A stretch of 64,000 nt of DNA from an uncultured Clostridia bacterium (lineage in GTDB: Bacteria > Bacillota > Clostridia > TANB77 > CAG-508), in the NCBI GenBank assembly GCA_944387545.1, contig CALXFE010000001.1:62001-126000 (forward strand), given 5' to 3'. The first letter of the stretch is position 1. Every line of letters starts with the position of its first letter. A program made the translations under genes and the position numbers. This document shows, one piece after another, positions 13,605 to 14,955 of this stretch. Below the pieces are notes generated by a model. It made no database searches. It saw nothing but the letters and a program-made list of their open reading frames with translations, and had not been told where the DNA came from.

Positions 13605-13641
13605 AAGATATACTTAAAATTCTATATAAGTATATCAATTT
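13605..13641 (-). terminator. Terminator of the priA-def-fmt operon
   Basis: GATATACTTA pairs with TAAGTATATC (about 13608-13639), followed by seven T on the minus strand. It separates the upstream operon from asp23. Confidence 0.75.
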
Positions 13642-13713
13642 TTTATGAATTTTACAACTATTTTCACAATATTTACACTTTTTTAAGAAAATATTACCAA
13701 TATTGTTTAATTT

Positions 13714-14943
13714 TTATAATTGTATATCTTCTCCTTTTTCTTTTACATTTTCTGTATTATTATTTTGTGATTTTTCATTTACCTGTGGTTTATTTTCTAC
13801 TTTTAGTGATTCTTTAAACTTCTCTTTCTCCGTTTTTTCTTTTTCTTCTTGTTCCTTTTCTAAGTTTCTTACATACTGCAATGCTTCGTTTTGTTTCTTT
13901 AATCCATATTCTTGTTTTAATTCCTCATAAGATGTGCCACTTATAAAACTTTTAATAAAACTTTCTCCCACTTTTTGGGCTTGTTCAGATCCAAAAAATA
14001 GCATAGTTGATGTTTCTTTTGTATCATATTCTTTATCAGAATTAAACATTTTTATTTTTCCATTTGCATATACACCTAATGAAGGATTTGTAGGATCTAC
14101 TACCAATGTTACATCTTTTTCTGGTATATCTACTAAAGTAATCATATGATTTCCTGTCATAGATTGTAATGCTTTAATTATCGGATTATCCTCTTCTGGA
14201 ATCGAAGTTTCTTCTCCTGTTTCTAACACTTTTCTTTCCACATCTGCTAAATGATATTCGCCTTCTACAATTTCAACATTTAGTATTCTTGCATTATATC
14301 TTTCATCAATTTTATTTAATTTCTTAGCTACATCATTTGCCATATTTCTACATACACCATAGCCATCTTCTGTTGCTAAATCTAATTCTAAATATCCCAA
14401 AATATCTTTTTCAGGCGTGGCATATCCTTTTATATTTTTCCACATATCATCTGTAACTTTCATAATTGTTTGCAAATCATTTAAATGCATTGCTTTTATT
14501 TCTTCAGCATATTCTGATATATGATCATCATAAGTTTCTATTTCTTTTTCATATTTAACTGTGTTTTCATTAATTGACATTTGAGCGATGCTTGATGTTC
14601 CTAGGGCTATTTCTGTTAGTCCTATTGCACTATATAAACCTATTTTTTTCATAAACATTTTCATTTTTTGTAATGCATTCCATGAATAAGCTTTTAAAGA
14701 ACCTTGTGTTTCTTTTATTTCTTGTGTACGTGCATGTAGTAATAATTTATTATACTCACCCTCACCATATTTGTTATAAATATCTAAATATTTTCCCTCT
14801 TTTTTTAGTTTTTTTAATTCTCGTTTTCTATATTGGGATGGTGTATTTTTTATATAGGCTTTTTTGCCATACTTTACAAAAATATCATTATATTTCTTTT
14901 GCTTTTTTAATTCTTTTATTTTCTCTATTGTTTCTTTATTCAT
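13714..14943 (-). CDS. Putative transglutaminase-like (papain-fold) protein
   Basis: I do not recognise a named family for this 409-residue protein. Residues 14-70 contain two imperfect repeats, KKQKKYNDIFVKYGKKAY and KKEGKYLDIYNKYGEGEY. A moderately hydrophobic stretch follows at about 101-121. The core has an ordered Cys-His-Asp set typical of transglutaminase-like hydrolases: C198 in EDGYGVCRNMANDVAKKL, H266 in GNHMITLVDI, and D283 in LVVDPTNPSLGVY. The C-terminal 60 residues are charged and disordered-looking. It is the last gene of priA-def-fmt, 12 bases after fmt. The fold assignment is inference from motif order and spacing. Confidence 0.6.
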   Translation of the reverse strand: MNKETIEKIKELKKQKKYNDIFVKYGKKAYIKNTPSQYRKRELKKLKKEGKYLDIYNKYGEGEYNKLLLHARTQEIKETQGSLKAYSWNALQKMKMFMKKIGLYSAIGLTEIALGTSSIAQMSINENTVKYEKEIETYDDHISEYAEEIKAMHLNDLQTIMKVTDDMWKNIKGYATPEKDILGYLELDLATEDGYGVCRNMANDVAKKLNKIDERYNARILNVEIVEGEYHLADVERKVLETGEETSIPEEDNPIIKALQSMTGNHMITLVDIPEKDVTLVVDPTNPSLGVYANGKIKMFNSDKEYDTKETSTMLFFGSEQAQKVGESFIKSFISGTSYEELKQEYGLKKQNEALQYVRNLEKEQEEKEKTEKEKFKESLKVENKPQVNEKSQNNNTENVKEKGEDIQL

Positions 14944-14955
14944 ATTTCTTTTCCT

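Follow-up and report, generated by a model that had tools for sequence, protein, structure and literature searches.

Enzymes of the transglutaminase-like superfamily, which spans proteases to cross-linkers, use a Cys-His-Asp triad to form a thioacyl-enzyme from an amide. LapG is a protease, and Rad4/XPC and menin belong to the superfamily as non-enzymes. In the accessible part of its description (PMC3507681), TgpA sits in the membrane and carries a transglutaminase domain in the periplasm that is active in vitro, while the accessible part of the work on Caulobacter HvyA (PMC4241560) describes an exported transglutaminase-like cysteine protease for which C192, H226 and D241 are required for function and whose loss leads to capsule and phage resistance. 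A literature search, which was not exhaustive, found no papers on TglA of S. pyogenes. Here we assign a 409-aa protein to a new family of this superfamily with an unusual architecture, where "new" is to be read within a literature search that was not exhaustive. The uncatalogued family, with an architecture of its own, joins the superfamily in a large set of gut bacteria that are known mostly via metagenomes. The reading we prefer, with a probability of about 0.6, is a membrane-tethered thiol enzyme that acts on the cell's own envelope. The data show the family, its conservation, the fold of the domain, the repeats, the changing location and the losses; catalysis, topology and substrate class are what we infer.

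The window, the whole 64,000-nucleotide stretch of DNA analysed, carries the gene as an ORF with an ATG start. Its placement in the priA-def-fmt operon by the first-pass annotation was confirmed, with a gap of 12 bp after fmt and one of 112 bp before asp23.

13714..14943, minus strand: whole gene, transglutaminase-like protein of 409 aa (ORF; 100% self-hit at G000:C1:75717-76943)
14944..14955, minus strand: 12-bp gap between fmt and the gene, with AGGAAAAG before the ATG, resembling a ribosome-binding site (from the sequence)

No promoter or terminator of the gene's own scored above shuffled sequences. A promoter-like site (TTGTAA..TATACT) lies before asp23, at window positions 13629-13657, and is retained in relatives that lack the gene; asp23 is therefore probably transcribed from a promoter of its own.

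The motifs in which a transglutaminase-like Cys-His-Asp domain had been recognised are all present, namely GYGVCRNMA (C198), NHMITLVDI (H266) and VVDPTNP (D283), and both the predicted fold and the conservation of these residues support such a domain.

13810..14586, minus strand: transglutaminase-like catalytic domain, residues 120-378 (confident model of 114-378; fold matches)
14350..14352, minus strand: codon of Cys198, presumed nucleophile (Cys in 41/41)
14146..14148, minus strand: codon of His266, presumed general base (His in 41/41)
14095..14097, minus strand: codon of Asp283, presumed third catalytic residue (Asp in 40/41, Cys in L112)

The full-length model reached a pLDDT of 78.8, and the catalytic domain modelled alone with AlphaFold2 (residues 114-378) reached a pLDDT of 91.6 and a pTM of 0.90. 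In the predicted structure, Cys begins the core helix (198-212), His begins a strand (266-273) and Asp ends the adjacent strand (278-283), which is the placement of the transglutaminase core topology, and the order Cys, His, Asp is conserved. The first-pass annotation had named a wide separation of the three residues as evidence against the triad; at the level of topology, the model gives no sign of it. The best VIA-align match was S. pyogenes TglA (9crn; Z 11.3, 161 residues, 3.6 A), followed by the transglutaminase 4xz7 (Z 9.6), LapG (8.6-8.8) and a putative cysteine protease (3isr, 7.8), with transglutaminases 2 and 3 (~7.3), the geldanamycin amide synthase GdmF and NATs (~7) and TgpA (6.0) lower down, and PNGase also on the list. 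The tool warns that Z below 8 is common, and values of 6-11 are middling. Nearly all of these neighbours are transglutaminase-like proteins, and the full-length model yields the same ones as the domain model. The structure prediction that the first-pass annotation had proposed thus returned a confident domain with an almost uniformly transglutaminase-like neighbourhood. Foldseek gave no match at E <= 0.001 with either model, its top rows being Rad4/XPC, a putative protease from Bacteroidetes, TGase, PNGase, NAT, LapG and TgpA. It is the consistent neighbour list and the conserved triad together that point to membership of the superfamily.

Sequence profiles place the protein outside the catalogued families. 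No Pfam family matched the window protein at E <= 10, it did not reach the 23-bit cut-off of Transglut_core (PF01841), and among 41 members of its family only three matched PF01841 at E <= 1 (best 0.012). A profile-profile comparison with Transglut_core proteins of relatives was not significant (E 0.23), and the one PF01841 gene of the window's genome, at C7, is distinct from the gene at 13714-14943. The likeness to Transglut_core lies in the order and role of C, H and D and in an NHxW..D-like block around the His and Asp. Peptidase_C93 (LapG/BTLCP) was not among the best 25 of 31 and best 25 of 58 Pfam families. Because no Pfam or NCBIfam model was matched at its cut-off, we treat the protein as a new family within the superfamily. 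NlpC/P60, the other family that had been put forward, was set aside: the window protein had no Pfam match at E <= 10, the third residue is Asp and the fold neighbours are transglutaminase-like.

Conservation was assessed in two alignments, one of 25 chosen full or nearly full loci (A1) and one of 41 catalytic domains that are 25-62% identical to the window protein (A4). The latter took 41 of the 43 suitable sequences among 54, omitting the broken genes L062 and L063, and long members with an insert are absent from it because proteins of <280 or >510 aa were excluded. Only ten positions are invariant in all 25 sequences of A1 (D166, C198, L209, N217, A218, R219, H266, D283, S332 and G347), and with three of the ten in the triad, its conservation at the sequence level exceeds chance. 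Among the 265 columns of the 41 domains, C198, H266 and D283 rank 3rd, 6th and 8th. Poor conservation, which the first-pass annotation had named as evidence against the triad, was not what we found, with Cys and His in 41/41 and Asp in 40/41. The His-Asp spacing is 17 in 38 of the 41 domains, and Cys and His lie 47 to 95 residues apart; the long members outside A4 carry an insert of ~50 to 200 residues between Cys and His, and two of the 25 A1 members match MORN_2 in this insert (best E 3.4e-6). In one member (L112:6427-7752), the catalytic Asp is replaced by Cys (IFCPTNPS), with Cys and His retained.

Outside the catalytic domain, the first-pass annotation had described N-terminal repeats and a charged tail, and both are there. 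The repeats appear as KKQKKYNDIFVKYG and KKEGKYLDIYNKYG, the two 34-residue units being homologous (hhalign profile-to-profile E 3.8e-13), and the tail covers approximately residues 379-409, with low confidence in the model.

14824..14925, minus strand: 34-residue helical repeat 1, residues 7-40 (hhalign against repeat 2; model helices)
14722..14823, minus strand: 34-residue helical repeat 2, residues 41-74 (hhalign against repeat 1)
14587..14643, minus strand: hydrophobic segment, residues 101-119, presumed signal anchor (same place across the family)
13849..13953, minus strand: C-terminal helical hairpin like the N-terminal repeats, residues 331-365 (hhalign against repeat 2)
13717..13809, minus strand: charged low-confidence tail, residues 379-409 (pLDDT <50 for 384-409)

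The match between the C-terminal hairpin and repeat 2 (hhalign E 8.1e-5, probability 61) is suggestive only, and the hairpin may be a third relative of the repeats. In 51 of 53 members, the flank on the N-side of the hydrophobic segment is more positive than that on the C-side. The net charge is +17 over residues 1-100 and -21 over residues 120-378, non-catalytic Cys makes up 0.31% of the catalytic part versus 1.29% over window ORFs of >150 aa, and the catalytic Cys is the sole Cys in 26/53 members. Based on the flank charge, the net charges and the Cys-poor catalytic part, the protein would be oriented N-in and C-out, with the repeats in the cytoplasm, the hydrophobic segment as a signal anchor and the enzyme outside the cell. 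We regard this topology as likely, stopping short of a firmer statement because in the window protein the segment is only weakly hydrophobic (KD19 1.22). The family median is 1.58, and just 23/53 members reach 1.6. With a segment this weak, membrane anchoring itself is not certain.

A profile of the N-terminal part matched 20/117 genomes of the genus, every place being an intact or broken locus of the family. In another genus of the family, the N-terminal repeats also occur as stand-alone proteins of ~145-180 aa (L094-L100):

L094:4503-4994; L095:4485-4955; L096:4125-4565; L097:2376-2849: stand-alone N-terminal-part proteins
L098:4312-4746; L099:4173-4712; L100:4029-4469: stand-alone N-terminal-part proteins

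Two other members (L118:4968-6785 and L115:5565-7148) have a long C-terminal extension, and L118 has a weak DndB match (E 0.0015) that is below the cut-off.

The family is restricted and patchy in its distribution. A whole-genome search with the protein matched 30/194 genomes of the genus (14/109 of good quality), and the A1 profile matched 44/385 genomes of the order, which we take to be TANB77 of GTDB, in 11/48 genera. The catalytic part is present in 37 of these 44, while five have the N-terminal part alone (G233, G265, G297, G344 and G432), G346 has a 95-aa remnant and G055 a distant relative. In the wider class, 3/291 genomes matched: the genome of the window itself, plus two with weak, partial matches. 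All 49 loci from a scan of named genomes are in metagenome-assembled genomes, mostly labelled Clostridia or Clostridium, with L148, L163 and L164 labelled Bacilli or Aphodocola.

The gene also differs in location between relatives. The 53 distinct members are found between queA and tgt (17), DUF1294 and lepA (8) or fmt and asp23 (5), near a tex-like gene (3, a rough label for a neighbour cluster that merges more than one gene family) and elsewhere (20). When these locations, labelled from up to three neighbours per side, were mapped onto a quick tree of 53 sequences, built from all 54 distinct ones except the 95-aa remnant L121, five location changes were sufficient (the minimum is 4; shuffling gave a mean of 27.5 and so low a count in 0/200 trials). 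Location therefore tracks the gene tree as a few relocations. The fmt-asp23 members form a clade (SH-aLRT 99) that joins the queA-tgt rows in a set of 22 (95), and this grouping makes a relocation from queA-tgt to fmt-asp23 likely, with the caveat that the tree was a quick one. In the window's genome, the queA-tgt gap is 98 bp and lacks the gene. Among 30 tgt loci, one has the gene, 23 have queA without it (gaps of 11-1112 bp) and in six no queA is seen; among 30 asp23 loci, three have the gene, 13 have fmt and asp23 adjacent without it and in 14 fmt is outside the stretch.

Loss is visible at the DNA level. Six nearest fmt-asp23 sites that lack the gene were compared, and at two of them DNA alignment revealed its 3' end, as scraps of 141 bp (L180) and 53 bp (L177) that end at the stop codon (0/300 shuffles as high), so the gene was once present there and then lost. 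A profile search of intergenic regions for remnants was uninformative (best E 0.066, reversed controls from 0.26). Eight of 33 copies in the genus set are broken, some of which may be explained by assembly errors. Two fmt-asp23 junctions without the gene (L176 and L175) contain palindromic GGGGACGG-type repeats, perhaps tied to deletions. A 95-aa remnant between queA and tgt (L121:3148-3435) has N-terminal repeat 1 fused to the C-terminal repeat, as if two similar stretches had recombined. The same broken gene is found in two species (L062:2724-4428 and L063:2619-4323), where DNA identity climbs from 82-90% upstream to 93-100% across the broken gene, which suggests recombination.

Seven intact gene pairs gave dN/dS values of 0.19-0.40, compared with 0.01-0.28 for neighbours of the same pairs; the gene exceeded its neighbours in 30 of 32 comparisons, one pair having no neighbour to compare. 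A single broken pair gave 0.66 (n=1). For L039/L042, the ratio may be distorted by recombination, because dS in the gene (0.21) is below that of the neighbours (0.39-0.65). The protein is fast-evolving, under purifying but loose constraint. On balance, we consider the gene to be an accessory, lineage-restricted trait that has been repeatedly relocated and lost.

A phage origin was rejected. Searches of phage records with tblastn gave just N-terminal, helix-rich matches (E 0.3-0.9), the best places all being in phages of Erwinia. Neither the protein nor A4 brought up a viral homologue in IMG/VR, and BFVD gave nothing at E <= 0.001. In PADLOC, the window protein matched 0 families, and the scattered weak matches involved one member each. 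PDB sequence matches to CD3 gamma (E 0.002-0.1, covering ~50 residues), the NCBIfam TraO match (E 0.95) and the single PHROG match of the window protein were taken as chance, as were the scattered Pfam matches of members, mostly to coiled or charged stretches.

The operon had hinted at N-terminal or translation-linked processing, that is, a cytosolic enzyme co-expressed with def and fmt. In its favour, the gene follows fmt after 12 bp and is co-directional with it, in an arrangement found in 5/53 members, and the commonest site, queA-tgt (17/53), likewise involves tRNA genes, but the remaining 31/53 adjoin neither pair, fmt and asp23 are adjacent without the gene in 13/30 asp23 loci, and the charge and Cys pattern is that of an exported domain. 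Linkage to def or fmt is not conserved (5/53 members), and location follows the gene tree as a few relocations. Since most relatives carry the gene elsewhere and loss is frequent, def and fmt do not explain it; this reading is very unlikely, and the gene probably takes no part in formyl-Met processing. Neighbourhood was rejected as a guide to function because the insertion site varies among members: the operon hint misled, the housekeeping neighbours not being functional partners. The envelope, also raised by the first-pass annotation, fares better on one count, being plausible from the predicted topology, but asp23 and amaP next door lend it no support; in relatives that lack the gene, a conserved region of their own lies upstream of them. 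A non-catalytic scaffold akin to Rad4/XPC or menin would fit Rad4 topping the Foldseek lists and the one D-to-C member (L112), but C, H and D rank with the best-conserved columns of the domain, which a scaffold would not require, and we regard it as highly improbable.

An extracellular cross-linking transglutaminase (Gln-Lys transfer) in place of a hydrolase is possible though doubtful. Transglutaminases are among the best structural matches (TglA, 4xz7, TG2/3), but LapG and NAT match about equally, and the acceptor is not set by fold alone; for TgpA, the accessible text reports transglutaminase activity in vitro (PMC3507681). The patchy presence (30/194 genomes of the genus), the 8/33 broken copies, the loss scars and the fast evolution could instead reflect a surface-tuning enzyme under changing selection, with a precedent in HvyA of Caulobacter as far as the available part of that study goes (PMC4241560). 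The loss pattern would fit a surface factor, but it also fits a gene of small benefit, and no capsule, S-layer or phage link, PADLOC defence model or viral homologue was seen, so we consider this unlikely. A more elaborate version, in which the protein is a signal-coupled, single-pass surface enzyme of a new kind, earns still less credence: cytoplasmic repeats might sense a cytosolic partner and control the extracellular domain. It is a similarly long shot that the domain would trim or cross-link a surface polymer or protein, with phage or host pressure driving loss, relocation and fast change; the analogy would be to HvyA, with an unrelated architecture, and is just as speculative.

For the membrane-tethered thiol enzyme that we prefer, His266 would activate Cys198 and Asp283 would position the His; Cys198 would then attack an amide, in a peptide bond or in the side chain of Gln, giving a thioacyl-enzyme. 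With water as the acceptor of the acyl group, the enzyme would be a peptidase, amidase or deamidase; with an amine, the outcome would be a cross-link or a transfer. The choice of acceptor is not fixed by the fold, and we lean slightly towards hydrolysis over transfer. The Lys-rich 34-residue helical repeats would sit in the cytoplasm, the single hydrophobic segment would serve as the anchor and the acidic, Cys-poor catalytic domain would face outwards, so the substrate would probably be one of the cell's own envelope or surface proteins or peptides. TgpA (PMC3507681) and HvyA (PMC4241560) are precedents for such a domain that faces outwards and acts on the envelope. Against this reading stand the weak hydrophobic segment, the middling Z values, the absence of a Foldseek match at E <= 0.001, the non-significant profile comparison with Transglut_core proteins of relatives, the presence of non-enzymes (Rad4/XPC, menin) among the matching superfamily members and the Cys in place of Asp in L112. 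The conserved triad allows a clear single-residue test.

Comparison with known systems places the family apart from each. The protein of the same genus at L122:4959-5927 (322 aa, G055), a distant relative whose gene adjoins a PolC-like gene, shares GKGVCRN, PNH and YDPTN motifs, and its profile matches that of the window family over the Cys block (E 1.6e-6); unlike the window protein, it shows neither repeats nor a hydrophobic anchor in its sequence, and it has no name in Pfam and NCBIfam. S. pyogenes TglA (9crn) is the best fold match, yet identity is 11% and there is no sequence-level match in the PDB search. TgpA of P. aeruginosa (PF11992 plus PF01841) shares with the predicted topology of our protein a place in the membrane and a transglutaminase-like domain outside the cytoplasm (PMC3507681, in the part available), but has a PF01841 domain and spans the membrane with six helices where the window protein has one hydrophobic segment and two 34-residue repeats, and is critical for viability, whereas the window gene is often absent. 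LapG (fold Z 8.7) and HvyA share an extracytoplasmic Cys-His-Asp arrangement; the Cys-His distance is 34 in HvyA (C192-H226, from the accessible text) and 47-95 in the window family, and both are exported without cytoplasmic repeats, whereas the window family carries repeats predicted to lie in the cytoplasm.
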